This document shows, one piece after another, positions 22,201 through 61,461 of a stretch of 64,000 nt of DNA. Both the position numbers and the translations under genes were made by a program. This DNA is from Owenia fusiformis (lineage: Eukaryota; Annelida; Polychaeta; Sabellida; Oweniidae). How positions within the stretch are numbered: the stretch's first letter is position 1; every line of letters begins with the position of its first letter. The stretch lies in assembly GCA_903813345.2 (NCBI GenBank), contig CAIIXF020000011.1:23667754-23731753 (forward strand). The letters are read 5' to 3'. The notes beneath the pieces were generated by a model. It saw only the letters and a program-made list of their open reading frames with translations, ran no database searches and was not told where the DNA came from.

Positions 22201-23519
22201 GAAAAACTGTAATACGAATGGTGAAAAATGGAGGCTTAAACATAATTGATACTAAAATAAAAATACAAAGTTTAAAATCAGTTTGGGTTAATAAACTTCT
22301 AACTAGTGAAACATCCTGGAGACTTTTTCCAAGTTATTTGATAAATAAAACAGGTCTATGTTTAAAAACATTTCTAAAGTGTAATTTTAACCACGATGTA
22401 GCACCTAAAGAGCTGTATATATTTACAACTTTTTACAAGGAAGTGTTCTACTCTTTTAATAAGTGCAAAACATACAGGAATAATAATGAAATGAACAATG
22501 ATGACATTTTAAGAGAAATCATTTGGCTAAATAAAAGATTTTTATCTAAAGGCAAGACAATACTATATAAGAACTGGATTAAATCAGGTTTTATATATGT
22601 TAAAGATTTCTTCAATAATGATGGAACTTTTAAAAGTAGTAACACTTTCATTCAAATTTTAGAAGAAAAAAGAAACTGGATGGTAGAATTAAGTATCCTT
22701 AAAGATACAATTATGAAAATATGTAAATATATTGGAAAGGAAAATTTACCTTACCTAAATGAGAATAACAAACCGATTTTTTTAATGGAAAATCATTTTG
22801 TAGATATACAAAATAAGAAAGCTAAATTCTTTTATAATATCCTACAAAATCAAATATCTGAAAGGAATATGAATGAATTTAATTGGAATAAGTTATTTGG
22901 TATAAAGCAACAAATCTGGGAAGATATTTATCAGCAAAAGGTAAAAGACATGACATACAAATATTTCTCTGAATTTAACTTCAAAACCATTCATAACATA
23001 CTGGCATGTGGAAGCACAGTGTCAAAATGGAACAAAAATGTTTCAAGCATGTGTCTTATCTGCAATAAAACTCATGATATGAAACATATGTTATATGAAT
23101 GTAAAAAAGTAAAACATATATGGCAAGAATTAGGTATACAATTAAAATGTGAAATCATGTATAAACATATTGTTATAGGATTTTTATCTGGAAATAACAT
23201 CACCAACTTCAGGAATGTCATTATAACAATTTTAGGGATCACAATATATAACAACTGGTGTAAATTTTCTGAAGACAATAATAGTTGGAAACTATTTGAC
23301 ATTCGAACAACTTTCATAAGAAATTTACAATATTATTCCTGCTTATTTAAACTCATAAAAAAGGACTACAATTTGTCTATATGGATTGAAAACATCATTA
23401 AGAACTTTTGAAAAAAAAAAACATTTATCTTTATCAAGATTTTTGTAAAACAATTTTTGTGAATCCTGCTTATACGCAATTTATTGTATTGTCATTGTAC
23501 ATGTTTAATATTTGTGAAT

Positions 23520-23550
<31 letters not shown>

Positions 23551-26500
23551 GCGCCTCAATGTTTTGTGTCAGTTACAGCAGTGTTCAATTCAGACAGGTT
23601 TCATTGTACATTGCAGTGCTATAAGTGTATAAGTGTTGTAGACATCACTGCAAATGTTAATGGAAGAGAAAATGAAATAATCGAAGCAAGAATATAGTAT
23701 CTTTCATAGAAGTGGTGACATGTGATATTTTACAAATATTTCATTCTGTTGGGTAAATTTTTGGTCATCTTAGTGGTTTTTTGGACATCTCAGATATTAA
23801 TGAAATATTTGTTTTATCATCAATGATTAGAATCCCTACTTTACTATAAGGCAAGAAATGTTTATCAGTGTTAACAAAAATTTACAACAACATACATCAA
23901 AAAATCAATTTTAACTTTACATTGAATGAAAAAGGTCACGGCAAGGAAATGCACTCTGATCAGTATGCCTTTTAAACTAGAGGGAATACATCTTATTTTT
24001 CATTCATGTGCTTGGCATTGACCAATCAGCTAGAGAGTGGGTATCATGGCAATGAATAATGATGACATTTACCCAATTCAGGTATTCTACCAAATATGAA
24101 ATGTGAATGAGTCCTATTAGGTAAAACCTAAAATAATTACAAACAAAATTTTGTTTCAATACAAGTTATTCCTTGCCATGTTGCCCTTCACTGAAAATCT
24201 TCAAAATAAATTTCACCCTTCATTGATGCATACCTTCAGCTGCTTGATGACCAAATGAGCTTAAAACTGCATTCTGGGTAGCATTTTCCTCCTGTGACTT
24301 TTGCTTAGATAGTGGGTCAAATTCTTTACTCTCAAGCGCAGTTGCAGGCTTATAAACAGAAGTTGGTGCTGGGGATGGGTCATTTCTTGTTGTTGAGTCA
24401 GGGACTTGGTTATTTGCTGCAAAATCAGAAAATAACATGTAATACATCAACCTGATGATTGAACAACCCTCTCTGGCCCCAGCCTGTAGCCAGGGGTATT
24501 TGTCAAGTGTTTCTGGGCCAACTTGTCAAATGCGAACCCCTTTTTTGAATTTTTTTAAGAGTGAACACCTCAAAAATCTCTGGACCTATTTTGCAAAAGT
24601 ATCAATTACCAAATTGTGTTCATAAGAGCCCCTTTGGTGATATGACCATTAAATATGCTTCAAAATTTGCTAGACACCCCATTTAAAAACGCAAACTACT
24701 ATTTTCACTTCTTCAGTTGAAAAGCCTATTGGATTTCATCACAAGCAGGTATCAGGTGGTTTTATCTCATTAACTTTACTGAAATTACTGTTTCCATGTT
24801 TAATTAAGAATGATTTTAAATAATTTCAACTGTTGTCTTCATTCACTTTCCCTGTTTTCATGAATTCCAAATATATCCCTGAACCCCATCTAAATCCATC
24901 CTTGCTCCAGGGGTATTACACTTGATTCCAAAATTGAATTGAAAGATAAATGAAACCCTTTGAATAAAAGAGGCCTAAATCTACCATTCAGCCACTTACT
25001 TTGTTCTTCAACTACAGAGGCGCTGGAAATTCTAGGTTGTGGTTCAAGTCTGTCAAGTAAATGATTAACACGATCTCTAATATCCTGAAGTTCTGATTTC
25101 ATATGTTTAATCTCATCATCCTCAAGTGGTTTTGGAATATCATTAACTGAAATATAAATGTTTTAGAATATCATTTATTGAAATATAAAGGTTTGGAATA
25201 TCATTTAGGAAAACATAAAACATTTACACTGAATATAAGCTTTCAATTGTTAACTGAAATATAATGGTTTCAAAATATACAATGTATGTTGAAATATAGA
25301 GAATTCAATTTGTCAAACAACAGTTTCAATATATAACTTATTGAAACAAAATGCAATAAATCACTTATCACAGAGGTCAAAGGGTTAGCACAGATGGACA
25401 TTCCTTACATTGTGCTATAAACTATTACAATATGTACAGCGAAACTTATATATCCGAACACCTCTCTAATCTGAACACCTCTCAGTGTGAACATTTTTTC
25501 TGGTCACAAATTTGTTATCTCCCATTGACTTACATGTGAAATGTGAACACTTGCTAATCTGAACACTTTTGGCCAGTTCCAAAGGTGTTCGATTAAGACA
25601 GGTTTTACTGTTGTATATTGAAACTTTACTTACCAAATATGGTTAGCCTCAGTATTCTACTGCATTGTATGGCGAAGGATAGATCAGAACTATCAAATAT
25701 AGATATCAAATCACCCTCTAAAAATACAATTGTGAATACATGTATATGGTATCATGCCTGATGGATATGTATGCTGGTAGAGAAAATGATTATATTATGC
25801 TTAACATTCTGGACAGCAATGTCATTGTATATGTTCTGATATCCTTTGCATTTTGATAGACTTAGCTTCTGATTGGATGAGAGAATGTCAGGATGGCGGG
25901 TTTGAATTGTTTTATGACCAGTTAGTTTGATGGTCTCCAGCAGTAGAGATGGAGTTGCTTAACTGTGAATTTGTTTTAACATATTTAGAGGTTAATTTAG
26001 AAGAAAACCCTGCACTCTGGGCATTTTTAGGAAAATGGAGACACTGGTATTTCATGCAATATCAGACCCCTGTGAATTTGAATATTTGCAAGGATAATCA
26101 AAGGAGAAAATTATTCCACTCTTTCCTCCGTAATCACCCATCCCTACACTATAGCATAGGCGTAGCCAGGAGGGGGTGCAATGGTGCTATCGCACCCCCC
26201 CCCCCATAACCAATGAAAATATAATCATTAGATAGAGGAAGAAAAGAGCTTTAAAATTCTTTGATTTGAAGCTTCTAGCTCAATTTTGAAGGAAGTTACA
26301 TCAATTTTTGTAAAATTCAAAACAAATATTCGTCTTTTTTTGGGTTGCTTATGCCACAATCACACCCCTGACTGAAAATCGAAAAAATTTCGGCAATCAC
26401 ACCCCCCTTACTGAAAGCTGGCTACGCCCCTGCTATATTATTCCTATTCCTGTCAACTTTATTCGAAAATAATTTTTAATTCAAGACAACCTAGATCCTC

Positions 26501-26726: not shown

Positions 26727-27460
26727 TAGCTGGAATGAAGTTTGAAAAGTATCACTATCATGGCTAAGATGTTTGTCGTAAGCTGTGTATTCTTTGTGCT
26801 ACGTTATTATTTTACAAAATATTTCAAAAATTATGAAATTATAAATTTTGAGTACAAGATTTGATAATTGTACATGGGTTTATCAATCAATATGCACTGT
26901 ACAACCAATCAAGTTCACAGGATTTGTGCAATCATATATGGAAAAGTATATTCATAAATATGAATGACATTTGTATATTTCAGATTTTTTAGTTTTTTGT
27001 GCAATAAGCCTGTGCCCTCTTGCAATTTGAAGAATGTCAGCCATGTTATTCTTATTGCAAATAACATGGCAAAGAAGCATCAAAACATAAAAGGCCACAC
27101 ACTTTATAAGTCAAACTAGAAGTAATCCTAGATATACAAATGTCATTCATATAATAGGAATATATTTTTCCATATATTATTGCATAATGATATTTTGATT
27201 TCTTATTTTTTAAGTTTTACTGACGCAATAAAACAGTGAAATGAACTTTATCACAGCTAAGATGTTGGTTGTAAGCTGTGTATTTGTTGTGCTACTTAGT
27301 TATTATTTTGCAAAATATTTCAAAAATTATGAAATTATAAAATCGTACATGGGTTTATCAATCAATATGCACTGTACAACCAATCAAGTTCACAGGATTT
27401 TTCAGTGACCTCATTTATTCAGATCACACCAGTCGCAAATCACAATAAAACTGTAGGGGC

Positions 27461-28004
27461 TTATCCCGTGCCAGGACTATAGTCCTGCGAACGTCTTATT
27501 CTTTTGCCTGTAAGATTACAACATGGGAGAATTTTCTACGCTTCTTACACTTAAGATACCTATTTCAATAGATTCCTTGGTATTTTAGCATTCTTTTCGT
27601 GTAGTTGAATCTACAATTGTCTGGGTTTATCGGCAGAACAAAGACATTTTCGTTTTTAATCACAATATTTACGTGTAATATTTAACTTATTTCAACCGTC
27701 AAATTCCTCCATTTATTGGTGCTTCCGGGCCACTTCCGGGTCAGTCAAATGGGGAATCCCCTTTTAAATCCAACCTCCATCTTGGAAAGTGATGGAATAT
27801 CTCTCGATGAAAAGGAAATGTTCCCGTTCTGCCGATATACCCAGACAATTGTGGATTCAACTACACGAAAAGAATGCTAAAATACCCAGGAATCAATTGA
27901 AGTAGGTATCTTAAGTGTAAGGGGCGTAGATAATTCTCCCAAGTTGTAATCGTACAGGCAAAAGAATGCTCTCAATGCAGTACTATAGTCCTGGTACGGG
28001 ATAA
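27461..28004. mobile_element. Foldback element, 544 bp, about 200-bp terminal inverted repeats
   Basis: The left end TTATCCCGTGCCAGGAC and right end GTCCTGGTACGGGATAA are inverted, and similarity continues inward to the CGGCAGAAC / GTTCTGCCG pair. GTAGGGGC (8 bp) lies directly on both sides, at 27453-27460 and 28005-28012. Long TIRs plus 8-9-bp duplications fit hAT or Mutator-like non-autonomous elements. No transposase. Confidence 0.85.
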
Positions 28005-29074: not shown

Positions 29075-29671
29075 CTTACTTCTTGCGAAAGCTATTTGGA
29101 TTTTGATATAATAGCTTTCCCACGGAGCATTTGGACAGCTGAATGATTGTGACCTTTGAAATCGAATTAAGTCAATCCGCGGCTTACTTTTGGTCTCTAA
29201 CTGTGTCTTACATCAGTATCATCAATCTGTGTAAGTATTAGAGCGCTGAAATACTTCTTTTTCGATCAAGACTTGTAAATTGTTCATCGAGTGAATGTTT
29301 TTTAAACCTATTTCCAATATTGCGGTTTGTGAGGAGCGAGATACGCAACGAACGAAATGAATTTTGAGAATTAGTTAGGTTCGGACAACCTCCGGAGATT
29401 TACGAAAATGTCCGAGCAGAAAACGCCATATTGGAATTTGGCAGTAAAAACATTCACTCGACTAACAATTACAAGTCTTGATCGAAAAGGAAGTGCTTCA
29501 GCGCTCCAATACTTACACGGATTGATGATACTGATATAAGACACAGTTAGAGACCAAAAGTAAGCCGCGGATCGACTTAATTCGATTTCAAAGGTCACTA
29601 TTATTCAGCTGTTCACTTCCCCGTTTGAGAGCCATAGGTTTCAAAATCTAACATGGCTCTCGAAGTGAGTA
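29075..29671. mobile_element. Foldback element, 597 bp, inserted in a duplicated segment
   Basis: Arms of about 220 bases (29075-29310 and 29445-29671) are inverted. Examples are CGATCAAGACTTGTAA against its complement and GACCTTTGAAATCGAATTAAG against CTTAATTCGATTTCAAAGGTC (split sites near 29150 and 29578). ATAAG flanks both ends (29070-29074, 29672-29676). The paralogous stretch at 27075-27095 lacks the element, giving an in-window empty site. Confidence 0.82.
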
Positions 29672-31359: not shown

Positions 31360-34300
31360 TGGAGGAGCATGTGGGGGAGCAGGGGATGGACCCCCAGAAT
31401 ACCAAAGGACTAAAAGCAGGGATAAATATTCAACACCACAACAAAGGCTAAGCCCAGACACTGAAGACAATGTTTTAAAGGAAACTGAAAGTGTTTTTCA
31501 AAGTTTTTCATGTCATATGTTGCAAAATGAACAAACTAGAACGGGAGACATGATGGATACACCATCAAATCCAGAGCTGATGTCAATTCGTCCAAACCCA
31601 GTATCGTAAGTTTCTATTATTTCCTATTTGCTAGATCAGGTTGTCAAAATCAGAGTTTTATCATTGTGATAAGCCACATTTCTTTGATCTCTGTCTGCAG
31701 CATCTTTGTAAGAACTATGTTATTGTAGGTACCAAAACAGAGTTCTATTTATAAAAGTACAAGCAATTGGTTTGACCAAATTTCGTAGGGAAAACCAGTA
31801 TGAAACTCCAAGATAAAATGCACTCAAGATTAAAAATCTTCAAGATATCATATTTTTAAAACTTTATCTGGTAGTGATCTCACCAGCCTAAAAGAATACT
31901 TCAAGTAAAATCATGCATTTTGCATTGAGTTGATATGAATCCTCAAGAATAACCCACAGAGAAGTATGATCTGTTGATCTATAACTTTTATAAAAGGAAC
32001 ATAAAATTAACAGTTTTGGGCAAATTATACAAACATTTAGATAGGCTAAGAATAATTATCCTGCAAATGACTCATAAAAATCCTTTAAAGGGAATGCGAA
32101 GTTTCATGTTCTAATTTACAAGCTGGCTACTTATGACCATCATCTATCACTTCAGCTCACTCATGGGACATATCGTGTTTGAACTAACATATAATTCAAG
32201 TTCAAAGTACCCATATCTGGATCGCTGCGGATGCCGCCATTGTTATGTATCAATGACGTCATTGATGCCTTAAAATTGATGCCTGGGAAATGTCGGTATA
32301 TAATCACGTCATACTCGGATCGCAGAAATAGAACACATTTCACTGATATTTTATAACTATTTCTGTCCGCTTAACATTGTTGTCGCATGTTCATGTCCAT
32401 ATCATATCATATATTTGGAAAAGTTGTTTCAATATATTCTTCATAGCAATTGAATTGTTGCAATGTAATTTTTCAAATGTTTGTATTTATTTCCTCCAAT
32501 GTGATATAGTATAGGCTAGGTAGGAAAATCACTAAACTTATGAGATATCGGCTGCGCGATTCGGAAGTCATCGCATTATATTCCACTTGAAAAATATCCA
32601 CTAGAATTATTTTATATAATGATAACACTGGGTCAAAAAGGATAAAACTGTTCAAATCCTGTAAATGCTTTCTTGTATATTTTACCAATAAATGAGGTAA
32701 ATGCATTAAAATATACAAAATGGCATTTGCACATAAATGCTACCCTGCGTGCAGAGTCTAAACTGAAGACGAAGCTCTCTTTTAAGAAGTGAAGTCAAAC
32801 TAATGCAAAGGGTACATAAATGCATTACTGTGCATCAATTGGGATTTATTTAACTAAGATTAATGTGGCTAATGTGTTGGCGTATTTGTGGTAAAAATAA
32901 GTACATGTAAGTTATATTAACGGCTGAACGCATCCAACAAATAATTGCATTTACTATATTTATGTAAATACACGACATACCATTTAAAATATCAAAATCT
33001 ATGCTAATGTTCATTAATGCGCTGATGAGCATTTACGGCACATCATTATTAACCTTAAGGTATACGTCGGCAAATAGGCATACTGCCGCAATTGCTTTCT
33101 TACCTAATCATAAATGGTAGATTTCTTCAATCTGTAGTATTCTATTCGAATGTGTATAGGTGCATGGATAGGGGCATATTGGAGAATGAAAGAAACAAAA
33201 CAAAAAGTAGTAATCCAATGAAACAGTAACTCCCTAAAGTGTTTAGCCATTTAAATTCTGATGAAAAACGCAAACAAAAAAACGAAAAATCGATGTCGTC
33301 TAAATGAAACGTATGTAAATGTCAATCTCCTAAATATTAAGATTGGCAAAAGCTTTACAAGGACATGCCACTGTCATATTTTCAAAGAATAATACGTAAT
33401 GTTTAATTTTTCTCAGTTGTTAATCGACCAATTTCAATCATCATATCACCGTGGCGACATTCGATATGACAAAAGAAAGCTTTTCAAAATTCAATGGTAT
33501 TTTCACCTTAGATCATGACAAGAGAAGGCTCATAACATTCAGTGATGCGGGGAGACGATGGGGTCGATTGTAGTATGATATTTCATTTCAACGACGATAA
33601 GGCAATTGCCGTATTGATAGTACGCCAATAGTTTAATATTTGTTTTATTATATATCTATTTTTTTGTTAAAAACAATTCCTGATTTCGAGCTCGAATTTA
33701 ATTATACGTAAATACAGTTTTACAGTATTTTCGATATAATGATTTTCAATTTAATGGCATACAACCTTTTGTTTTTCTATATCGGAAAATAAGTGGAACT
33801 TTAAAAGCTTCAGTCACATTTGTTCAATGCGACCACACGTCGATCGTAAATCAGTAAAGGAGGATGGAAATTAGCGCAACAGATTTTGGACAGTCATATG
33901 TTGGATTATGGCCATTTTCTGAGGATTTAAACAATTGCATATGTTGGGCCAATGCATTACCTCCAGGAAAATCCCTTCTAGAGATGATAAAATAATTTCA
34001 ACTTTGAGACAGGGTAGATGCAAACAACCCACCCACATGTTTTTTCTGAAATGTTTTCCTAATTTTCGACCCCTTCCATCCCTGCTTTTTTAATTTTTCT
34101 TGCATCAATATGTTGCATTTTGACATATAGTTAACCACCTTAAAGGAATAAGTGATTCCTTAAGGGGTTTTAAAGATACCCATTATGGGTGACCAAACTT
34201 AGCTGAAAGCGATGATTTTTCCTATGGGAAATATTGTTTTCCACTTTATCTAAAAGGAATCATTTATTCCTTTTAAGGTATTAACTGTGTGTCAAAACGC

Positions 34301-37300
34301 AACATATTGATGCAAGAAAAATAAAAAAAGCAAGGATGGAAGGGGTTGAAAATCAGGAAAATATTTCAGAAAAAACATGTGGGTGGGTTGTTTGCATCTA
34401 CCCTGTCTCCTAGTCGAAATTATTTTATCATCTCTAGAAGTGATTTTCCTGGAGGTAATGCATTCGCCTAATATATGCACCTGTTCAAATCCCCAGGAAA
34501 TGGCCAAAATCAAACATATGACTGTCCAAAATCTGTTGCGCTAACTTCCCTCCTCCTTTCTGCGGCAAACATAGGAAAACTACAGTCGACTAAAGGTCAC
34601 CTTGCTGTCTACGTACACGACATATCCAGTTTTTACAAGGCGTAGCGGAGTTATAACTTTTTCTTTCCTGTGGTCACCATAGATATCAACAAGCAGCAGC
34701 CAAACCGTAGGTCTCACGACGGCCGTACATCGGGTTCACGGTCGACTTGCGGCTGCGCTTGGATTCATAGGTTCCAATTGACCTTTCCGAACCGAACCCC
34801 TTGTGGATGCCTTCAAGAAAAACTACGCACGTCGTAGGGCCCCCCTACGCTGATCGTGCGTCATCATTTACCAGCCGTACGGGAATCGTAGTTTTTTCTC
34901 ATAATCAAGATACGCCGTACGGCTATCTTAGCAAATGTGACTGCTAAATTATCTGACTGCATAAATACTTAGGCAACCCGTAGAAATCCTACTTACCACA
35001 GAAATGATAGACCGTACGGTTCCCGTAAAAATGTAACGTGAGGCTAAGAATCCATGATAGTAATTGAATACGGTTTTAAAATTTAATTTTAAAATTTTAA
35101 TTTCTTTGAATACCTGTGTTAAAGATAAACATAAATGCAATGAATATTAAAGTACGAACACGTATTTTTGTAATGAGACTAGCAAATTAAACTCTTGCAT
35201 TCTTGGAAACTCAAGATGGGTTGGTTGAATTAATTTTATTATGTTTTATTCTAATAGTTTGCATTCGCCTGATAGAATTAGCATTTTCTGTTCGCATTTA
35301 GCGCTAGACCTAATAAAAGTTAAAAGTCACGAATCCCAGATTGTTTCAAGTGTAAATAAAGAATAAATCTAACCTGCATTCCATGTCTAGATAGGTAAAA
35401 AGCAATTCCGAAAATGCCGGCGTTAATATTCTATTGAAATCGTTCTTTATTATGGGTGGTATATACGTATTCTTTTAGTTCCTTTGAAATGATTTCTTTG
35501 GTTTTGGAATGGCAACAACTCGGCATTCATTTTTTGATTCAAAAATGGCGCCACAAAACTTTTAGAATGCCAAGGCATCAATCTGGCATCAATGACGTCA
35601 TAACAATGTCGTAAAGAACCACTTTACGGTTGAAATGGCAGCTCCGTGGTCCAGTTCATATGCAAAACCCGGGGCTCAATAACAATTAAAAGGATAATGA
35701 TAGAACAATAAAACTAAGTTGGATTGAAAGATATATCTTTATTCTAACTTATTATCAAGTTTAAGGGACAAAACTTCGCATTCCCTTTAAACCAATTTGA
35801 ACCAATTTTTGATTTGAATAATTAAACCCTGGACCGACCCTCTATTATACATTACTCACAAGTTTCATTCCAATTCTCTCATTATTTTAATTGCTGTATT
35901 TTGTCTGGTGACATCGATTGAAATTGATTCAATGTCATTAAAAAACTATTAGTAATGGATGATATATGAATATTTATGAAGCTGTTTCACAGAAACTTTT
36001 GAAATTGTCAAAGGGAGAAGTACAAATGTTTCATGATCAAAGGTTATTACTGATAATATCAAAGTAAAGATTTTGAAACATCTTTGTGTACGTGTATTTG
36101 TTGATTGTTTCTAAGAAATCAACAAAAAATTGTAAGTGTGAGAAGTAAAACAATGACCTATCATCAAATAGTAAATAACTTATGACTTCAGAACTACACA
36201 TATTGAATGTGAACATTGTAGTGTTGTAAAGTGTAAACGATATAATTAGAAATGCAGCACAAAATAATCTGTCTAATGTTGTGAAGACCATGAGTTGTAC
36301 AAGAAAATCATTACTTTATTTTAACAGATGTAAATACAATCGGCAGACAGACATACACCAGTAGTATTAATCTGGAATTTCAAAAAATTAAGCTTAAAGA
36401 AACTTAAACCATTCCTGTGTCATTTAATTTTTCACATCATCATATCCTGCAACAAAAGAATTTTCACCTTTAAGCACTAACATTTACACATAATGTTGGT
36501 TTTGGTCAGTGGGTCATCCTTCAAGATCTGGTTTCACTGCTATTAGCAGCTATGGAAAGCATTGAAATACCTTTAGACCAAGGATGCAGTGAGTGGGTGG
36601 AATTGAGATTGCGTACAAATCATTATTTGATATCATACACAGGGTCGTAGTCAGCAAATGTAAAGGGGGTGAGATTTTTTGGGTTTGCATCACTGTGAGC
36701 AAAGCGAGGCCCAAAAATCGGGGTACTGGGTTCACCCTCAGAATTTTTTTAAAATCTGCATTGTATATGATGCATTCTAAGCATTTCAAACAATAATTTG
36801 ATGGTGCTTTTACAACAAATTTTACAAAATTGCTTTTTTCTTTTATGTGGGGGGGGGGCACCCCCACCCAGTACTTAGCATTGGGGGGTCGGATCAAATT
36901 TTCGATAAAAGTATTTTAATTCTTAAAGGGATCTACCTTGAGTAAAAATGTGAAAATTTTGACTGAACCCCTTATCTGTGGTTCAGTGATGTATTCAAGA
37001 AATATAGTAAACTTTATATGCTCCAGGATTTTCAGTGGTGTCAAGGATAGGTGAGTGGTGTCACTTAAACCATAATCTGGTATTTCAATAGGTTATCAAT
37101 CATGCATGTCAAAAATACAAACATTATCATCTATTGGGAAATGGAGAGCTTTAAATTAAGCTTTATATTAATGATTGCACGTAATGAACATCTGACCGCA
37201 AAATCCGTAAAGGAATCATTGAACTGACATTGATATGTTTTGCATTGTTTTTTTATGAACCCCCTTAAAGAGAATTCTTTCATGTCATGCTATTGTGATG

Positions 37301-40300
37301 TTGTTTCTGTGATTGATTGAAGTTTCTTTTTTGGATTGTACCTGATATCGACCCCTTCCAAAGTCATCTTCTTTTTAAGTTTGAATTACTTGCATGAGAT
37401 CTAGATAAAAATCTCAGTAAGAACTTGAGGGGTTTTCTATGAACCTTTCACCTGATCTGAAACTATTGATTCATTTATGAATTATGCAATTATGCAGGTG
37501 GCATTGAGTTTGATTATAAGGTAAGGTAATTAGAAGTTGATTGTCATTTATAAATTTTTAACCTGGATTTACCTGGTGAGGAAGGTATAGATTGAGTAAA
37601 GGACATGGTTCCAATTGTGTTTTTTAATTCCAAATTTTTGCCAGCCCTGCATTCTACAGTAGACAATAGTAAACAATCTGCGTTATGGAGGCATTTGGAG
37701 AGATGACAATGATATTTGCATACAATATATTTAACAATTTTATAAAATTGATGTATGTCAGAAAAATCGACTAATATCAATATAGACCAATAAACCAGGT
37801 GTATAAAAACACAACAGTGCAGTGAGATAAAACTGTCTAAGAAATAAAAAAGGGAGTCAAGGTGATTTGTCCTGAGGAGATAAAGTGTCAGTCATCAGAT
37901 GACATCAATTGTGTTATTATACAATGAGTTTGGGGATTGTTACTATAGCAACAGTGTTAGGAATCTTTTGATAACAAGAAGACACTTTGCAAATTACATT
38001 CCTGAAATTCCTCAGTTTCTTCTTTTTCGTGTACATACTTTCTGATTGATATCAAATATTAATCCGGATGGTCCAAAATAATTTTTCCAATAAAGTTTAA
38101 ATGTTTGTTAGGTAATGAAATCCTTCATCCATCAATCAGTCAGTAAATCTGTTGGTTCGTCGCGATGGTCCCACAAGGAAGTTTTTGAAATCTGGAATTT
38201 TTAGATTGCTCCAAAGTGTGCCTTTATTAAATTCAAATTACATTTACATGTAAAGGTTCTCAGTATCCAGCAACAGCTATCACATGACCTTTATGATTCT
38301 TGCCTTCAAAATTCCTCAATGGCTATATGCTAGAAATTGCGTCTGTTATATTCAAGATGACTGCCTAAATGAAAGAAATACATCTATGTTACAATAAAAC
38401 CCTTTCAAATTTCAAGAGTATTGTTTCAAAAATGACTTATTTTTTTACACTTCGGTTTTTTTTGTCATGGACTATACAAATGAGGTATTAGGGAAAATGG
38501 TGCATACAATATTCTGTTAATTCAATTTGGGATTCAGTGCAGTTGCCATAGTCGAGTTGAATATAAACTTCTTTTAAGTTCTCAGACTTGGCTTAATTCC
38601 CTTTTTACCATGATACTTTGTTAATTAAACAAATGGATGCTTTTGGCTTGACACGATATGAAACAGCTAAATATATGGATTAAAACAATCACCACATTCC
38701 ATTCTGATGATGTCATAACCAATCAATAAAATGATGATGATCTGTTATTATGAGACGCTACTCGAGCGCCCTTAGAAATATTTCAAGAAATTCCTGCATA
38801 TTTCAACTATATGCCCAATGGTTTTTGAATAGCTTGATATTTACCCCTTGCATTCGTTTGACTTCACTTCTTAAAAGAGAGCTTCGTCTGTAGTTTAACT
38901 AGACTCTGCACATAGGGTACTTGATATTATGCATTTCTTTAAATCTGAGGTAATAAAACAATCACATGCTTGCTTTTATTCACATGTACCCTGCATGCAG
39001 AGTCTAGTTGAAGACGAAGCTCTCTTTTAAGAAGTGAAGTCAAACGAATGCAAAGGGTAATTCACATGCCTGTTTATCACCTATTTCATGTTACTTTATT
39101 TTGATTTAAAGGTAAATGCAATATTTTTCTGTGGGTATAAATGTGAATTTCCTGGTATATGTAATTGATTAGCTTTTTTAATTTACTTGAACTCCTGGAT
39201 TCAATGACTAAATTTAAAGGAAAGATATCAATTGCACTATATTTGTATATATAAAAGATGTATGCAGTTATTTGTTAATACAATTAAACTATAAATCATT
39301 GGGATTTCAAGTTGTTTTTACAAAGAAAAAACGAAAAATGGTCACAATAATCTACTGTCACTGAAATATTGAGGTGATTGTTTTTTCATATTACCCTTAT
39401 GTATCCGATAGTTATAGTTTTAATGATGAGTTTTAAATCAAGATTATTTTTACTCGCACCTAGTCTATTGAACATGTCAAAAAATAGATTGATATTGTAG
39501 ATAGATTTTTATCTCGTAAATAGCTGAAAAAATATGTCATAGTATTTGATCCACTTCCTAGTGCACTATGAACAACTCACAAAGAAATAGAAACCAGAAT
39601 TGATGATTAAAAACCATAAGATGATAAAAAGATAAAAATGTCAATCTTAAAACATCAATAAATCAGTTGGTTATTGAGTCATTTTAAAACTTAAATATTT
39701 TACGACCAAAGATTAATTTTACGAAAATTCTGAGTCAGTTTTCATAAGATATTTTCTTTGTTGATATTTTTGCAATCTAATCTTTGTTCGGTTAAACATT
39801 TAAGATTAAACTAATACACCTGTGGTTAGTAAACATTGAATCATTGATATTTCAAGGCTCTGTTTAAGCTTGTTCGGTAATCGTTAATTTATTTGACGTT
39901 ATTCCCATGATGACGTCATTGTCAAATATGAATTCATAATTTTAACAATTTAAAGGGTCTAAATTATTTTTATTATATGTTACCATAAAGATGTTAATAA
40001 CTTGATGTTTGATATTTTTGAATTCAATTGACATGAAAAGGATTGCACTTGCAAAGATGTTGATCTATGAAGTGAAAACAAACTACTCATTATTATTAAT
40101 TCAAATTGAAATATTAAAACAAATTACTTTAGATTTAATCTTTCTTGGTTGTATTTGATGTAAATGTGAATTTTAATCAAGAGCCTTTAATACAATCATA
40201 TTCATAAGTAAAAATAAATATGACTGCAGTCTAGGAATTGATTTTTCTGTTTGGGTGTGACTGATACTTGAGATGAAATCATTGAATGTCTCTTTCTATT

Positions 40301-43300
40301 CCTAGAATAGAATTTGCATCACCTTTACAACAGAGAGTACAGTACGTCTGCACCACCCATTCAATCTTTGACGACATATCCCATTTAGTACAACATTTTT
40401 TGCAAGAAGGTTGTAGAAACATTCTAGGCTTTTGCATTAGACTAAAAATCCAGTGTGGTGTTTAATACTTGATTATTCTATTTGTTACTTGTATACCATT
40501 GGTTAATGAGAAAAGAATTGACATCGGTATAGTAATACATGTCATGGGCGTAGTCAGGCATGAGGTAGCTGTGTCTCGCCAAATAAAAGTTGCTTCACCA
40601 AATTTTAGATCCTGGCTACACTGCTGCTTGTAGTAAAAAATGATTTCATAATAATGCAGATGCGAGTAGGTAGTTACCAGATTTACCACCAGATGGCTCA
40701 TTCGGGTCAGATATCATGGCGGGTATTAGTAGAAAGTTCCCTTTAACTTAAATTACATCTATTTGCGTGGTTCAATTTTCATATGACCCTTATGTATCTA
40801 ATAGTTATGCAAATTTAAATATGTCCAGTAAAAGAAATGTTATTTGTCCAATACAAAATAATTCACTTTTTGTGATTTTGTAACATGGGGACTATGGGGA
40901 ATCAACCCGAACAAGAAGTCACATTTTCAAAAAAAATTAAATTTTCAAAGTTGATAGACAATTTTCGAAACCATATTTCTAGATGTACTTTTACATGCAG
41001 ATTTCAAAAATGACATCACTTTGACTGAATTTTGAATATTTAATGACGTAAATCAAGATTATTTCTACTCACATCTAGTCTATTGATGGCAAAGAGAAGA
41101 ACCCATGTTCCCCCCTCCCATCTATACTAAAAACATTCACTTCAGGCATTACATGTTCTTCACAGATAACATAATAAAAAGGTTGAAGTCTGTCAATAAT
41201 TTATCAGTTGAGATGCCTACAAGTTTATATCTGTCTGGTACCCGTGCACAAAATGGGCATCTGTTTACGGTTATTTCACTCTATTTCTCTGTAAAATTTC
41301 AATTAACTTCTACATTTTCTGGCGTTTTTAGTGCAATTTAGTGCGTCACTTTCATTGTATATGTCAATTTTCTTCCGTTTGTTTCATTTTCACTCCATAT
41401 TGGAGATTCAAAAAGTATGATTATCATTGACTTTTGTTTTATTACATAGGGATTCACCTGTACTTCCTTCCTCTGATGTAAACATGTTTTGCTTATTTAC
41501 ATGGAATGTACTAATGGCAAATATATTTACAGGTTTAGTGTATATTCAAAAATGAGAGTACAAATTGAGTAATATCCTTTTAATAATGCACATACAACAT
41601 GTACATGTTAAAACGCTAAGATTGCATTGCCATGTGCCCCTGTCCATTTGGCTTGCTTGCTAGACTATGTACTTTTAGGTGGCATCATTCACACATCAGA
41701 AATTCTTGGTACATTTTATCATGAGTATTTCAAGTATGGCTGATATGTACTGGATTAGTAAATATTATCATCTGAGGGATATGGGGGGTCTATAAAAACA
41801 TATCATTTATTATCCCATCGAACGAAGTTCGGAGGGATATAGGGAACGCCTCCGTCCGTCCGTACGTACGTCCGTCCGTCCGTATCTATATATTACAAGA
41901 CGTACGTCTGTCTGTCTGTCCGTCCATCCGTCCGGGCAATAACTCAAATACCGTTGGCCCGATTTTGTTCATATTTTGTACACATATACCTTATGGGGAT
42001 AGAAGTTCTGCTCGAAAGCCGATTTTCAAGATGGCCACTCATTTCAAAATGGCGGCCATTTTAGTGACGATTTTACAGTAATTTAGGTGCAATATGTAAA
42101 ACTGTAATAGCAATATGTTTTAAATGTAAAAGAATTATAAAGGACATTAATAATGCTACAAATGTAGATATTAAAGAAGCACATGGCAGCCATCTTGAAA
42201 AAATGGCGGCCTTTACTCGTCATTTTACGATTTTTGCTATAACTCAAAAAATAGTGGAGCGATTTTGTTCATATTTGGTATATGAATACTATAAGCATTG
42301 CACACTGTCTAAAGACACTTTTGGTAGAAGGCGGCCATTTTGAAAAATGGCCGCCATTTTAACGTATTTTACTATAACTCGAAAAGTAGTGGAGCAATTT
42401 TGTTCATATTTGGTATGTGAATACTATAAGCATGGCACACTGTCCACTGACACTTTTGGTAGAAGGCGGCCATTTTTTAAAAAATTGAAAAATGGCCGCC
42501 ATTTTTATGTATTTACTATAACTCGAAAAGTAGTGGAGCGATTTTGTTCATATTTGATATGTGAATACTATAAGCATGGCACACTGTCCTATGACACTTT
42601 TGGTAGAAGGCGGCCATTTTTAAAAAGATTTTGAAAAATGGCCGCCATTTTAACGTATTTTACTATAACTCGAAAAGTAGTGGAGCGATTTTGTTCATAT
42701 TTGATATGTGAATGCTTTAAGCATGGCACATTGTTTAATAAAACTTTGGGGAGTAGTCGGCCATTTTGAAAAATGGCCACCAATTTTATGTGTGTTATTT
42801 TACAAGTACGTGTGCGATTTTTCAAAAATTTTAGAGGTGGCTACTTAAAAGCATATTATTTCTTCTGATGACAACTTGGCTAGTGAGCAACCATTTTGAA
42901 AATGGTGGCCTTTCTGGTGTGTTGTTTTATGATATTTGCTATTCGTTTGTAATAATGCCTGCCATTTCTGTTCGATGGGATTCGCTACGCTTTGGCGTTG
43001 CCGTTGTTCTGGTTCAGTATAGGCCCCAAGGGCTGTTCCGCTGGTCATTACCAGTTTACTTTTGATACGGACCAGTTGATTCTTTCACTAGGTATATGAA
43101 AATAACATTGCAACTGGTCAATAATGCCATTTTGACCAGCAGGTTTCAGATCCTTAGCAGCAACACTGCATATATCTGGTGTGTACAGTTGTATACATGT
43201 AAGACCTGTATATAAGAACACTGAACATCTCTCAATGGAACACTTTTCCTGTCCCAATTTGGTCATCTCCCATTGACTGACAGAATTATGAAACCTTGAC

Positions 43301-46300
43301 ATATGAACACCTGTTAATCCAAACACTTTTAGGTGATCCCAGTGGTGGATTAGACAGGTTTAACCTTAATTAGAAAAAAATATTTTGGGTTTGAAAAAGA
43401 CAAAGAATTGTTACTTGAATGAACTCTATTCTGCCTCAGAAATTTTGGGAAGTTTAGTTGCCATATTATGTTTGTGAGAAAAATTAAACAACAGCAATTC
43501 ATTGATCAGATAATGTTGACCGAAACCATTTGAAGATGATAGATAGCTCTAGTTCCACCACCACCACAAGTGGTGACATATTGTTATGGTCTATACATTT
43601 TTTGGAGGTGGTGGTTGGTGTTTGGCATTGGATGGTTGGTGTTCGGCATCTGTAACAAGTGTTAAGTGGTGACATTTTGCATGTTAATGTGTTGTTCAAA
43701 GAATACCGGCGTACATATGCCCTGAATCTCAGATTCTGAATTTTGAGTGACTTGACCTAATTCAATTTGAATAAAGCTAGATCAATGGATCTCTTATTCA
43801 AAGAATGTAGATGAGGTTCTTAAAGATGTGAAACCAATCTCTTGAAAAGGATTGTTTCTAAGAGGCGTACCTGAGTAACCTGGGATTCAACCCGGTTGTG
43901 GTAACTATAAAAAACCTTGGAGACGAGTGCTTTCATTCGTGATTGATTATTATTCATTATTAAATCATAGGATATTCCTTGATTTTGTGGTCAGAGACCC
44001 TGGAGGCACCTACCCATAATGCACCACCATGGGTCATGTGATATAGTCTGACCAATGAACAGTTGTCTTTATAATGAAGGATATTTGATTGTTTGAGTAT
44101 CTTATGGATTATGGGATTCGATTGTGATTATTCTCGTCAGATGATGCTATTTTTATGATTGGCGCCAATTTATACTTAAGCTGCGACATTTATTGTGGCG
44201 ATTTAGAGCAAATTGTCGGTCTACATGTTTGTAAATCACGTCACACCATCGAGTAACACATTATTTTTACAATAATATGTCTTGTGTCGAGACAGGTGTC
44301 TAGCCTGGTCATTTGAGATATGGCAAGACAAGAACAAACTTCATTTGGCTGGTCTTGACAGCCTGCAACAAAATGCTTGAATATTGTATAAAGTCATGAC
44401 TTTTCTCAGTGGTTCAATGGGTGCAACTGACCCCCTCCCCAAACCTGACGTGTTTGTGTTGTGGTGAATTTAAGTTCATCTATCGTATTTTATTTATTTC
44501 ATCATATAACATTAACAATGGTAAATTTTAACAAATATTCATCAAAATAAAAATATAGAAATCCTGGGTCAGAAAATGGGACAGCTAAGCCTGGGAATGG
44601 GTCTGAATGTCCCAGAATTGTATAATCCTTTGATATAATCCTGTTGGTAGACTGTCTTTTCTAGACACATGTTTTACAATTGGTAATTATCATTATAGGT
44701 AGCCTATTACCTTTTGGATATCGATAAAATAAATCAAAGTTGTCAATATTCGGATCTGATTACAAAAATCTAGGTTTAGTTCCGGGTTTAAAGGTCATTG
44801 GGTGCATTTCGTATGATCTTTTTGTGGGTATGACGAAAATGCAGAATTGAGAAATCACAAGTTCAAAATTTATTCCAAATTGATACACAGTATGCATGTT
44901 AATTCATTTGTAGGCGTTGAGTCATGGATGATGAATTCAGTAATTATACAATGATATATCCAGTTTCTCTCCTACCTCCTGAAAATACGGGAAAAATTAA
45001 AAATGGTTAACTTTACAAATTATTCAATTTTTCATAAAGTCTATAACAACTCATTTCATCTCAAGTATGTTTTTAGTGAAACAGAAAGATGTGATGAGTT
45101 TCAGAATGACAAATCCTTAAAAAAAGTATTGGCAATTATAATATTTTATAACCTTTTTTCAAACAAATTGTTAAGATATGAGTAAAATGTAAATAAAACA
45201 ACATAGAATATTCCGTTATCTAAATAGGAAATAAAGTTGCACTTATTTGCTTATATCAATAAATAATATTGCGTATTGAAAAATAACACCAGATAAAAGT
45301 ACATTTCCTCTCAAGTTTAATATATCACTCAGTAATTAGAATTCTATACACATATTATTTTACAAATATGATTTATTTTTTAATCCCGTCATACCCTCTT
45401 TACAAAATACACACTTTGTTCCTCAACATGGAATGTAGCCTTTGAATTGTATCCAAAACATAAGTTACGGGCGGGCATACAGGTATACATATATGCATTA
45501 ACTCCATTCCATACTAATTTCTCGATTTGTATACAATAACATAGGAAAATAATTGTGAAATTATTTGTAAGGGTAGTTGAGTCACAGTGTTTCTAGGTAA
45601 AATCAATTGTCTTGTACTCAATTACCCCCAATGGTAATGAGTGCTACCAACCAATACAATATAATAACACAACTTTATACGCTATCGATAGCATTGACTA
45701 ACTGGCTTTAGCTCCAACTTTTTATCAGTATTCAGTCTATTATTTTCGATGTAAATTTAGCTGGACATTCAATGCATCACTATAATTCAATTTTTTAAAG
45801 ATATATTGCATGATTAGAAATCTAATAGGAGTCCTTCAGTAGGTATCCCTGCTGTATGCTTTATCTGATTGTAGCAGTGATGGCTCAAAACTTATGCATC
45901 GCCCCCTGAAGGGCATCACTTCTCTTTTCTTTTAAGCCAGCGCCACCTTGACCTTGACTGACCTTGACTTCTATTTATAAAATACCAGACATACTTTATT
46001 GATATTCAAGTCGATAATTATTTATTTATAATTATTATATGATAATTAATTATTTATCTTCTATGAAAAAATCACAGGTCATTTTATCAATTTGGAACAT
46101 TGGGTTGGTAATATCTATACAACTGTTTGATCTTGAGCTAGCCATTGTCTATTTTAGTATTTTATCATAGATATATTAAGATAAATTATGTCATTAAACA
46201 AAATATGAAACATTTTTGCATGTAAGCATGATGGCCTTGTTGATATTCCCAGTGTGGGTACATTCTATATTTGCACCATTTTAAATGAATAAATGATTAG

Positions 46301-49300
46301 GTATGTATAAAACAACTAAGAATTGTGGGTTCATTTGTACATTGATCATTGGTTGCACCAATTCTGGCCTTGGGATAATTTATTTATTTATTACTATAAT
46401 GATACATACTTCTACATTATGTGATTCTAATTCTACATCTGGGCATTTGCTAAAACATCAAGCAGTTTTTGTCACATGTACAAATGTTCATCATATAAAA
46501 TGTATGTAAATGTACTCATCAGAAATTGATGGATAAAATAAACATAATAATAACTAGACATGTAAATTGAACAAGTTCAATTTAAGACTCCAGATTTAAA
46601 ACTTTTTTAAGCTGAGTCATCCAAAATACTGTAAGCTGAGCCATTCAGAATAAGCTGAGTCATCTAGAATACAGACATTTAGACAACTCTTAAGTAGCTT
46701 ATCTTCGTCTACATTGGCTTAACATGGGGATATCATAATATCGACTTTTCGAGACTTCAAACAGCTATAACTATCTAACCAGAATTTGGGTCGAAATTTC
46801 AGGACGCCATTCCTCAAAATCGGTAAGAGTAATCAAAAAAGACAGTTACAATAATGAAAGGACTGTCTTTAAGCTACATGATGAAAAAAAAGATAAAGGA
46901 ATAACGACGAATAGTGACAAAGATAATTGACATAACATGGGATATCAAAATACCAATTTTTTAATTTTTCAAAACGCCATTACTTCCAAACCGGGTGTCG
47001 GATTGAAATTTGATTTGCAGATTCGGATTCCTGAGAAAATTCTACCCTTAATTCATAACTCATACGTTAAATTTGGAGAAACTTTCATGTTGACCTACTT
47101 TTCGGACACTATATCTCAAAAGTGGGTCAAAATACTTTCTGACGGCAAAAGGCTAACACTATTAGCACACTCTTTGCTACCTGTATACAAAATTTGGAAG
47201 AATATAGTTAATCTGTACTGTCAGAATCGCAAAAATAAGGAAAAACTTAGAATTTGACCTAGATTTTGACCTAGGCATTTTGGTGTCCAAATTTTTATGA
47301 AAAGAAGGTCTTGTGGTCCCTTTCTTTTATGGGCTTCCATTATGTTTAGCTGTGCTTAGTCTATATCTCGTATTTTACACTTCAAAAAAATATATTTTCC
47401 CATTGAATTAACATGGGGCACCAAATCTAGCGATTTTTGAATTTTCAAAACGCCATAACTTCTGAACTGGAAGTCAGATCGAAATTTTGTTTTCAGATTC
47501 GGAATCCTGAGAAAATTTCCTATAAGACTGATATCCTGGACATTGGATTCGGAGAAATTTTTTTTGGACCTCGTTTTCGGACACTGATATCTCGAAATCG
47601 GTTTGAGATACCAAAAAACTAAATCGACCCTAGGTTTTCTACTTTTTTATGAGAAACACAATGAAAAAAACCAGGATCAAAAATATTGAAGGACGACTGA
47701 GATAATGGGAAAAAGTGACAAAGTACTGGATTTGACCTAGTTCTTGACCTTTGACCTAGATAAAAATTTGACCTAATTTCCCAGAAAGCCGGATACAGTC
47801 TTTAGTTAACCATGTAAGTTGGATTAAGTAAGATGTTATAGTTGGAGAGAAAATCTGTTAGGAGGAAGAAAAAGAAGAATAACTAGATTTGTGAAATTGA
47901 ACAAGTTCAATTTAAGACTCCAGATTTATTTGACCTAGATAGATCAGTAAAGAGCTGAGTAAGTAACTGAGTAATTAGTTGAGTAAGTAACTTAGTAGTA
48001 GTTGAGAAAGTAGCTGAGTAAGTAACTGGGTAAAAAGCTGAGTTAGTAGCTGAGTAAGTAGCTAAGTAAGTAATAACTAATTAAGCAATTGAGTAAGTAG
48101 TTAAATAAGTAGCTGAGTAGGTAGGGAGGTAAAGTAGGCTATGTAGGACTTTTTGAAAGTTTATTTGATCAATCTGCATCGTGAATACTGGCAAGTGCGA
48201 ATTTCAAACTTCAAAATGGCTTAGAATCTTAACCCGGGGTCGAATTGCAATTTTAATTTCAGATCCGGATTCCTTAGGAAATTATGCCCCTAATTCATAA
48301 CTCATACGTTAAATTTGGAGAACTTTTTATTTTGACCTACATTTCGATCACCAGATCTCAAAAGTGGGTCTAAAAACTTCTTGACGGCAAAAAGTTAACA
48401 TTATAAGCACACTCTTTGCTACATGTATACAAAATTTCGAAGAATATCATTGAAGTGTAGTGTCCGAATTGCAAAAATAAGAAAAAACTAAGAATTTGAC
48501 CTAGATTTTGAACTAGGTATTTTGGTGTCCAAATTATGAAGGAAAGTAGCTTTTGGGGTCCCCTTCTTTTATGGGCTTTCATTATGTTTAGCTGTACTCA
48601 TTCTATATCTTGTATTTTTACACTTCAAAAAATTATTCGGTCCCATTGATTTAACATGGGGCACCAAATTTAGCTTTCAAAACATCATAACTTCTGAACA
48701 AGATGTCGAATCGAAATTTGGTTTGCAGATTCGGATTCCTGACAAAATTCTACCCCTAATTCATAACTCATACGTTAAATTTAGAATTTTTTTATTTTGA
48801 CCTACTTTTTGGACACGCCATAACTTCCGAACCGGAAGTCGAATCGAAATATGGTTTGCAGATTCCGATTCCTGACAAAATTCTACCCCTGATTCATAAC
48901 TCATAAGTTAAATTTGAAGAATTTTTTATTTTGACCTACTTTTGGGACACCATATCTCAAAAGTGGGTCAAAATACTTCCTGACGGCAAAAGGCTAACAC
49001 TATTAGCACACTCTTGGCTACATGTATACACGATTTCGAAGAATATAATTAAAGTGTAGTGTCAGAATCGCAAAAATAAGGAAAAACTTTGAATTTGACC
49101 TAGATTTTGACCTTGGCATTTTTGTGTCCAAATTTTTAAGCTAGATGGCTTTTGAGGTCCCCTTCTTTTAAAAGCTTCCATTATACTAAGCTGAACTCAG
49201 TCTATATTTCGTATTTTTCACTTCAAAAAAATCTTTTTTCCCATTGACTTAACATGGGCACCAAATTTAGCGATTTTTGAGCTTTCAAAACGATATAACT

Positions 49301-52300
49301 TCCAAACCGGAAGTCTAATCGAAATTTGGTTTTCAGATTCGGAATCCTGAGAAAATTTCCTACAAGACCAGTAGCGTGGACATTGAATTTGGAGAACTTT
49401 CTTTTGGACCTCGTTTTCGGACACAGATATCTCGAAATCGGTTTGAGATATCAAAAAACTAAATCGACCTGTTTTCCCCTACTTTTTTATGAGGAACACA
49501 ATGAAAAAAACCCGGATTGAAAATATTGAAGGACGACCGAGAAAATTGAAAAAAGTGACAAAGTACTGGATTTGACCTAGTTCTTGACCTTTGACCTAGA
49601 TAAAAATTTGACCTAATTTCCCATCATCCCAGATACATTCCCTAGTTGATCATGTAAGCAGCTTAAAGTAAGCTCTTCTAGTTGGTGAGAAATCTTGTAA
49701 GGAGGAAGATTCTGAAAGAAAAATAATAATAACTAGATTGGTAAATTGAACAAAGTTCAATTTAAGACTCCAGATTGATTTACTTGAGTAAAGAGCTGAG
49801 TAAGTAACTGAGTAGGAAGCTGAGTAAGTAGATGATTAAGTAATTGAGTAAGTAGCTGAGTAGGTAGCTGAGTAAGCAGCTGAGCAGGTAGCTGAGTAGG
49901 TAGCTGAGTAAGTAGCTGAGTAGGTAGCTGAGTAGGTGGCTAAGTAGGTAGCCGGGTAGGTAAGTAGGCAGGTAAGTAGGAATTTTTGACCAGAAGTCAG
50001 ATTGAAATTTGGTTTGCAGATTTGGATTCCTGAGAAAATTCTACCCTTAATTCATAACTCATAAGTTAAATTATGAGAACTTTTTATTTTGACCTACTTT
50101 ACGGACAGCATATCTCAAAAGTGGGTCAAAATACTTTCTGACGGCAAAAGGCTAACACTATTAGCACACTCTTTGCTACCTGTATACAAAATTTTGAAGC
50201 AAATCCTAAAAGTGTAGTGCCAGAATCGCAAAAATAAGGAAAACCTATGAATTTGACCTAGATTTTGACCTAGGCATTTTGGTGTCCAAATATTGAAACT
50301 AGGTAGCTTTTGAGGTCCCCTTCTTTTATAGGAATTCATTATCTTAAGCTGTACTCAATCTATATCTCGTATTTTACACTTCAAAAAAATCTTTTTTCCT
50401 TGACTTTCTATCAGGATACCATCAGATCGATTTTCCGAAATTTCAAAATGCCATAACTTCCGAACCGGAAGTCGGATCGAAATTTGATTTAAAGATTCGG
50501 ATTCCTGACAAAATTCTACCCCTAGTTCATAACTCATACGTTAAATTTGGCGAATTTTTATTTTGACCTACTTTTCGGACACGCCATAACTTTGGAACCG
50601 GCAGTCGGATCGAAATTTGGTTTGCAGATTCGTATTCCTGAGAAAATTCTACTTTTAATTCATAACTCATATGTTAAATTTGGAGAATTTTTTTATTTTG
50701 ACCTACTTTTCGGACACCATATCTCAAAAGTGGGTCAAAATACTCTCTGACGGCAAAAGGCTAACACTATTAGCACACTCTTTGCTACCTGTATACAAAA
50801 TTTTGAAGCAAATCCTTTAAGTGTAGTGCCAGAATCGCAAAAATAAGGAAAAACTATGAATTTGACCTAGATTTTGACCTAGGCATTTTGGTGTCCAAAT
50901 ATTGAAACTAGGTAGCTTTTGAGGTCGCCTTCTTTTATAGGAATTCATTATCTTAAGCTGTACTTAGTCTATATCTCGGATTTTACACTTCAAAAAAGTC
51001 TTTTTTCCCATTGACTTAACATGGGGCACCAAATTTAGCGATTTTTGAGCTTTCAAACCGCCATAACTTCCGAACCAAAAGTCGGATCGAAATTTGATTT
51101 GCAGATTCGGATTCCTGAGAAAATTCTACCCTTATTTCATAGCTCATTTGTTAAATTTGGAGAACTTTTTTAGTTTGACCTACTTTCTGGACGCCATATC
51201 TCAAAATCGGTAAGAGGAATCAAAAAACGGATGGCACACTCTCGATTTGTTTTTTTCTAAGCTACATGTTGAAAAAAAGATGAAGGAGTTAGGACAAACA
51301 CCAACGAAGATAATTGACAGATTGTTGATTTGACCTTAATTTGACCTAGTTCTTGACCTTTGACCTAGATAAAAAATTGACCTAATTTCCCAGAAACTAG
51401 GTTGATGGGCTATGTTGGTCATGTAAGTAGGTTAAAGTAAATTCTTCTAGTTGCTGAGAAAAAGTGTTCGGAAAGAAAGAAAGAAAGAATAACTAGATTG
51501 GTAAATTGAACAAAGTTCAATTTAAGACTCCAGATTGATTTACTTGAGTAAAGAGCTGAGTAAGTAACTGAGTAGGAAGCTGAGTAAGTAGATAATTAAG
51601 TAATTGAGTTAGTAGCTGAGTAGGTAGCTGAGTAAGCAGCTGGGCAGGTAGCTGAGTAAGTAGCTGAGTAGGTAGCTGAGTAAGTAGCTGAGTAGGTAGC
51701 TAAGTAGGTAGCCGAGTAGGTAAGTAGGTAGGTAAGTAGGAATTTTTGACTGGAAGTCGGATTGAAATTTGGTTTGCAGATTCGGATTCCTGAGAAAATT
51801 CTACCCTTAATTCATAACTCGTAAGTTAAATTATGACAACTTTTTATTTTGACCTACTTTACGGACACGATATCTCAAAAGTGGGTCAAATACTTTCTGA
51901 CGGCAAAAGGCTCTCACTATTAGCACACTCTTTGCTACCTGTATACAAAATTTTGAAGCAAATCCTAAAAGTGTAGTGCCAGAATAGCAAAAATAAGGAA
52001 AAACTATGAATTTGACCTAGATTTTGACCTAGGCATTTTGGTGTCCAAATATTGAAACTAGGTAGCTTTTGAGGTCCCCTTCTTTTATAGGAATTCATTA
52101 TCTTAAGCTGTACTCAATCTATATCTCGTATTTTACACTTCAAAAAAATCTTTTTTCCTTGACTTTCTATCAGGATACCATCAGATCGATTTTTCGAAAT
52201 TTCAAAACGCCATAACTTCCGAACCGGCAGTAAAATCGGAATTTGATTTAAAGATTCGGATTCCTGACAAAATTCTACCCCTAATTCATAACTCATACGT

Positions 52301-58604: not shown

Positions 58605-58975
58605 ATAGCCGCAATGGCAAAGTTCTGCTATTATGTAAATTGCAGCTGTACTGTTCTGTATTACCAGGCTATAACGCAATGGCAAAGTTCTGCAATTACG
58701 TAAATTGCAGCTGAACCGTTCTGTATTACCAGGCTATAACGCGATGGCAAAGTTCTGCAATTACGTAAATTGCAGCTGTACTGTACTGTATTACCAGGCT
58801 ATAACACAATGGCAAAGTTCTGCAATTACGCAAATTGCAGCTGAACTGTTCTGTATTACCAGGCTATAACAGAATCAAAGTTCTGCAACTACGTAAATTG
58901 CAGCTGAACTGTACTGTGTTACCAGGCTATAATGCAATGGCAAAGTTCTGCAGTTGTATTGTATTACCAGACTAT
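58605..58975. repeat. 65-bp minisatellite with internal hairpin, BAK 3' region
   Basis: About six units of 65 bases marked by GGCAAAGTTCTGCAATTACG, AAATTGCAGCTGAAC and TATTACCAGGCTATAAC; the last unit is shortened. Each full unit contains CTGCAATT-ACGTA-AATTGCAG, an 8-bp perfect stem. It begins about 80 bases past the BAK stop, so it is probably transcribed in the 3' UTR. Confidence 0.9.
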
Positions 58976-60532: not shown

Positions 60533-61328
60533 TGAAAGTTTACCTCTGTATAAAGGGACTAGTAAAAATATGAGAAATTGTTATTTAAAGTGGCACTGCC
60601 TGTATCATTTGATTGACCATTTCTAAAATGGTACATACCTGGAAAAAAGAAGATTCATTAAAAGCTTTTATTCCTTCTTCAAAATTAACATTAAGAATGT
60701 TTTATTTATATATATTTATATTGCATTTATATTAATGTATAAACTAAAAATGCAGTTGACTCCCCAATATCACAAATGTGAGATGTTTTTGCTCAAAGTA
60801 CTGAAAATACAGAGGGTGCCACTTTAACCACACTGAAAATTGAATGAAGTGATTTTACATAAAAGATTTTGTAGAATGCCTCATAAAGTCTAATAAATAA
60901 TAATGAACTATGGCTTATGAATTTAAGATCTAATAAAATATAAATAGATATATTTTATATTCTCTACCAATAAAAATAATAAATCATGTTATTATAAATT
61001 AAGTCTATTTGGAACTATTACATGAAAGTTCAGGGCATCTTAAGATTTATTGCAGAACTTATGATCTTTTTTTCATATCTTTGTTCACTAATTTAATGAT
61101 AACTACCTGTACCTCAGTCTGCCAGCTTGTGATCCTGTTTTGAGACATATTGATGAATATAATATATGTACATGTATAGTCCCTAATTTAATGATTCTTT
61201 ATCTAGTTTTAAATTAGTATATATGGTATAAATATTTAAAACATTGCAATTGCAGTCTATGTTGATAATTTGTTACGTTTGAATAGATTAGTTGATTTAG
61301 AATAGGTAGACTATTTTATTTTCAAACT

Positions 61329-61461
61329 ACATGTAGTAACATATGTACATGTAGTAACATATGTACATGTAGTAACATATGTACATGTAGTAACATATGT
61401 ACATGTAGTAACATATGTACATGTAGTAACATATGTACATGTAGTAACATATGTACATGTA
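61329..61461. repeat. 18-bp tandem repeat (ACATGTAGTAACATATGT), about 7.4 units
   Basis: Near-perfect consecutive copies. The unit is rich in short palindromes (ACATGT, ACATATGT). The translated open frame (repeating TCTYVT) is a by-product. Confidence 0.95.

Follow-up and report, generated by a model that had tools for sequence, protein, structure and literature searches.

Three copies of a 73-78-bp element between perfect 9-bp direct repeats: an apparent MITE family of very small size in what is probably an animal genome

What kind of event could have placed nearly the same sequence, only 73-78 bp long, at three sites of a single 64-kb stretch of DNA, each time between two identical 9-bp words? 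In this stretch, hereafter the window, which was analysed as a whole, blastn and nhmmer return three strong matches to the element, a density of 3 copies in 64 kb (Table 1), with coordinates, ends and 9-bp repeats all as the preliminary description had given them. The other matches are weak, with E values of 0.057 and up. Those at 25840-25870, 38547-38578 and 43806-43850 (E 0.057 to 0.91) were considered as decayed copies and set aside, being without a TACCC/GGGTA end; neither they nor any weaker match entered the copy count. The three copies are 87-93% identical, with 6 differences in 74 aligned bases between copies 1 and 2, 4 in 73 between copies 1 and 3, and 8 in 73 between copies 2 and 3. 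In addition, a block of 4-5 bases present in copy 2 is absent from copy 1 (4 bases) and copy 3 (5 bases). The element is non-coding: no frame exceeds 26 codons, and the longest stop-free frame has 24.

Table 1. Positions in the 64-kb window of the element copies, their flanking repeats and two internal features.
Feature	Positions	Strand	Length	Remarks
Element copy 1	32741-32814	+	74 bp	ends TACCCT...AGGGTA
Element copy 2	38842-38919	-	78 bp	TACCCT at one end, TACCCC at the other
Element copy 3	38987-39059	+	73 bp	ends TACCCT...AGGGTA
Duplication of copy 1, CATAAATGC	left 32732-32740, right 32815-32823	.	9 bp	perfect
Duplication of copy 2, CTTGATATT	38833-38841, 38920-38928	.	9 bp	perfect
Duplication of copy 3, ATTCACATG	38978-38986, 39060-39068	.	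9 bp	perfect
Core, copy 1	32767-32800	+	34 bp	identical in the three copies; alignment columns
Core, copy 2	38856-38889	-	34 bp	identical in the three copies; alignment columns
Core, copy 3	39012-39045	+	34 bp	identical in the three copies; alignment columns
Near-palindrome in copy 2	38886-38904		19 bp	shorter in copies 1 and 3

The direct repeats differ in sequence from copy to copy and lie exactly at the TACCCT/AGGGTA borders. Their length is 9 in all three cases: at an offset of 9, 9/9 bases match, and at ten other offsets (4-8 and 10-14) the best match across the three copies is 6/13. Terminal inverted repeats (TIRs), a duplication of fixed length (9 bp in 3/3), a short, non-coding body and dispersed copies in unrelated flanks together make up the anatomy of a MITE, and described MITE families include some with TIRs of only 5 bp (PMC4405373). 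We therefore take the copies to stem from three recent and independent insertions of one very small TIR DNA transposon, non-autonomous and 73-78 bp long (a MITE), with a probability of about 0.88. The recency is suggested by the alignment, where pairwise differences of 4, 6 and 8 in 73-74 aligned bases, next to intact duplications, point to a family that is probably young. Readings as a solo LTR or a Helitron were rejected, since the ends and duplications do not fit them.

In the proposed mechanism, a full-length relative at another place in the genome would provide a DDE-type transposase in trans. The enzyme would recognise the TACCCT...AGGGTA ends, perhaps together with sub-terminal core sequence, excise or copy the element, presumably in cut-and-paste fashion, and insert it at staggered cuts that lie 9 bp apart; repair of the resulting gaps would leave the 9-bp duplication. 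No longer relative of the element was found in the 64-kb window, and a Pfam scan of 24 of the window's 38 stop-to-stop ORFs of at least 90 aa gave no match to a DDE transposase. One ORF (42068-42343) has a weak match to an integrase SAM-like domain, with an E value of 0.0053, below the cut-off for that domain.

The superfamily of the source enzyme is suggested by the length of the duplication. MULEs typically duplicate 9 bp (PMC4486113), the length seen here in 3/3 copies, and Tm1, an animal Mutator/Phantom family, is described with duplications of 8-10 bp, mostly 9, in 45/53 complete elements, its commonest class being MITE-like members (PMC3169594). Given the MITE reading, a Mutator-like source is therefore moderately favoured on the evidence of duplication length, a length that is not exclusive to MULEs. 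It is also possible, if tentative, that the same kind of element was mobilised by hAT/hATm, Merlin or another non-Mutator superfamily with a possible 9-bp stagger, a reading that overlaps with the favoured one and differs from it in the enzyme only. In its favour are hATm, whose integrations are described with duplications of 8 or 9 bp and short conserved TAGGGTG/CACCCTA ends (PMC6004678), and the 6-bp inverted ends of the element, since MULE MITEs such as MuTAnT have longer TIRs, with a reported mean of 47 bp (PMC4486113). The duplication length is thus compatible with hATm, but the terminal letters differ, reading TACCCT from the outside in and not TAGGGTG, and all three duplications are of 9 bp. 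Merlin is listed with 8 bp, and MuDR/IS256 with 4-10 bp (PMC10045372). For molluscs, one study reports MULEs and hATs from every genome it analysed and Merlin mostly from cephalopods, although its ORF survey turned up some bivalve Merlin as well (PMC10294476); a first literature search for 9-bp MITEs in molluscs found none. The Mutator origin advanced in the preliminary description accordingly holds as plausible, the duplications being of 9 bp in 3/3 copies, and falls short of an assignment, as it draws on a length that hATm also produces (8-9 bp).

The element resembles the MITE-like members of Tm1 from root-knot nematodes in its probable animal host, in mostly 9-bp duplications and in the predominance of short non-coding members, and one of the asymmetric outer motifs of Tm1, CCTACCC, contains the element's TACCC, possibly by chance; it is unlike Tm1-ML, compared here by printed motifs alone, in that the latter averages 431 bp and has composite repeated TIRs (PMC3169594). 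MuTAnT of Medicago (PMC4486113) and Ac-mMITE of pineapple (PMC8449440) share with it duplications of 9 or 9/10 bp and a non-autonomous nature. The pineapple Mutator-derived MITEs are described as clustered by adjacent insertion, with no autonomous partner found and with 9/10-bp duplications (PMC8449440). MuTAnT elements are mostly 200-300 bp long, with longer TIRs starting GGGG and with (TA)n targets (PMC4486113), whereas the present element has 73-78 bp, a 6-bp TIR and no (TA)n at its three insertion sites. The surroundings of those sites are slightly richer in AT than the window, with 70-72% AT in 100 bases centred on the respective empty site and 63-69% across the window in 4-kb bins. Finally, hATm elements and their MITEs share the short conserved ends and the 8 or 9-bp duplications, and are unlike the element in their TAGGGTG/CACCCTA termini, the viral MITEs of the same source being 116-422 bp long with 2-8-bp duplications (PMC6004678).

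The flanks bear on a second explanation, in which segmental duplication of a single end remnant, and not transposition, multiplied the 73-78-bp units. A MAFFT alignment with 30-bp flanks aligns the copies within their borders and not beyond, and a comparison of the joined flanks of copy 1 with those of the other two copies gives a best E value of 2.9. Ungapped repeat extension overran the borders in two pairs, by 4-10 bases with mismatches, which we take as chance. The high identity of the copies (87-93%) and the 67 bp that separate two of them, a closeness expected by chance in ~1.4% of cases, would suit segmental duplication; the flank, however, would then be carried along, and here the flanks are unrelated and the 9-bp duplications differ, so that this explanation is highly improbable. 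The claim of three separate mobile-element insertions, each with its own 9-bp duplication, is thus upheld, and the possibility that all copies sit in one longer repeat with conserved flanks finds no counterpart in the window.

Copies 2 and 3 lie in opposite orientation, and the interval 38842-39059 was considered as a compound element. Its outer 9-mers, CTTGATATT and ATTCACATG, differ, and the pair therefore represents two insertions and no compound. Three random positions in 64 kb have members within 68 bp of each other in ~1.4% of trials; the closeness of the two copies could possibly come from adjacent insertion or local hopping.

The occurrence of perfect 9-bp repeats at the borders was set against the background of the window. 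Among 130 TACCC/GGGTA pairs that are 40-6000 bp long, three have a perfect 9-bp repeat, and these are the three copies; a tolerance of 1 or 2 mismatches in the repeat adds 0 further pairs. By base composition, the chance for one border pair, p(match)^9, is 9.3e-6. When intervals of 73, 74 or 78 bp are placed along the window with four satellite regions excluded, 11 of 165,009 placements have a perfect 9-mer pair, of which 4 are the elements themselves (one being copy 1 shifted by one base), leaving a background of 7 in ~165,000; with the satellites included the count is 12 of 191,721. A letter-blind scan for perfect 9-bp repeats with perfect 6-bp inverted ends, 50-400 bp long, returned three rows, copies 1 and 3 and an interval at 58705-58760 within a 65-bp satellite; 30 shuffles gave 0 or 1 row each, 5 in total. 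A looser scan (9-bp repeat, at least 10/14 inverted end bases, 50-6000 bp), which misses the three elements, returned 15 rows, compared with 1-3 per shuffle over 5 shuffles; of these rows, 11 begin in the satellite at 46.9-53.3 kb and none has TACCC ends. That short repeats and matching flanks came together by chance, a reading that can point to the 7 placements in 165,009 outside the elements that also carry a perfect 9-mer pair, is a negligible possibility against 3/3 copies at borders fixed by the repeat itself, at ~9e-6 each by base composition. The earlier judgement that three such matches are unlikely by chance is borne out by the 3 in 130 pairs and by the same per-border figure.

The ends themselves are short. 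Copies 1 and 3 have 6 exactly inverted terminal bases each (TACCCT/AGGGTA) and copy 2 has 5/6, its mismatch falling on base six at one of the two ends. When these six bases are kept fixed, the 34-bp ends of shuffled sequences align no worse than the real ends in 202/1000 cases for copy 1, 232/1000 for copy 2 and 49/1000 for copy 3. These counts do not establish a TIR of greater length, with copy 3 borderline; of the ends first described, the roughly 6 exact bases stand (5/6 in copy 2) and the imperfect extension does not. The folds of the element are likewise no stronger than those of shuffles, with z-scores from -1.19 to +0.35 over 3 DNA and 6 RNA folds. Stable secondary structure is listed as a MITE feature (PMC6004678); it was not seen in the folds of this element and is treated here as a trait common in MITEs, not a defining one. 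A long-TIR or foldback element was rejected on the end shuffles and the fold z-scores.

Internally, the three copies share an invariant run of 34 bp, longer than the core previously indicated. If the nine variable columns fell at random among 73, a run of this length would have a probability of ~0.02; with three related copies and a count that depends on the alignment, this weakly hints that the core may matter, as suggested earlier. A text search of the literature for the element's 17-bp core found no paper, figures and supplements lying outside such a search. Where copies 1 and 3 lack bases, copy 2 has a near-palindrome, and the 73- and 74-bp forms may thus derive from the 78-bp form by small deletions within it.

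The element is smaller than the families compared above. Some grass Stowaway MITEs measure only ~80 bp, so that 73-78 bp lies towards the low end of the sizes known for MITEs and probably still within them. That it ranks among the smallest transposable units, as suggested earlier, is not established, although it is below the sizes given in PMC6004678, PMC4486113 and PMC3169594; nor is a size record shown, literature searches on how small or short a MITE can be, or on Mutator MITEs of 60, 70 or 80 bp, having found nothing usable. The copies apparently belong to a young, very small MITE family, of notable size, in a probable animal genome; as they stand, the three are a neat but ordinary MITE case.

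With a donor this small, pairing of the two ends is mechanically awkward. Its 73-78 bp amount to roughly half the persistence length of DNA, and 73 bp with inverted ends of 6 bp offer little space to bind transposase at two sites and to bend the ends together. If abundant in its genome, the family would be a natural test of how small a cut-and-paste donor can be. It could also be used as a presence/absence marker. That a Mutator-like animal transposase efficiently mobilises such donors by binding the 34-bp core rather than long TIRs is unlikely; if true, the element would be a near-minimal transposon, and its ends would be recognised in a way new to the superfamily.

The window looks metazoan by its protein matches, which comprise beta-tubulin, a LINE reverse transcriptase and, just above its cut-off, the Fanconi-anaemia-associated FANCAA, a family of animals. 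The tandem satellites and palindromes would suit an invertebrate, conceivably a bivalve. Exact-pattern scans of bacterial and archaeal genomes and viral contigs gave 0 matches to the element, and blastn of 38842-39059 against phages and plasmids gave none; such nulls are expected for an animal repeat and carry little weight, these collections holding no animal genomes. Rfam gave 0 matches in the window at the gathering threshold.

Other repeats and elements lie in the window. A 686-codon open frame at 21351-23411 has a reverse transcriptase domain and is probably a LINE fragment. A candidate non-autonomous element of 1.6 kb at 62323-63931 has a perfect 8-bp duplication, CTTGACTA, and ends CAAGG... 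that are inverted at 12/14 bases; it is hAT-like in form. At 27461-28004 lies a 544-bp element with inverted arms of ~200 bp, TTATCCCG ends and a flanking 8-bp direct repeat, GTAGGGGC. Large near-palindromes are found at 33856-34559 (306-bp arms, 90% complementary), 29086-29662, 13711-14188 and 26924-27187; inspection by eye saw no 8-10-bp duplication at the blastn borders of the first three. A tandem array with a period of ~1.75 kb occupies 46926-53294 and contains 12-bp AGCTGAGTAAGT-like sub-repeats and 133-bp repeats. Satellites at 56978-57871, 42232-42773, 58610-58955 and 61328-61461 have periods of 162, 144, 65 and 18 bp, respectively, and the 18-bp array comprises 7.4 copies that are 100% identical.
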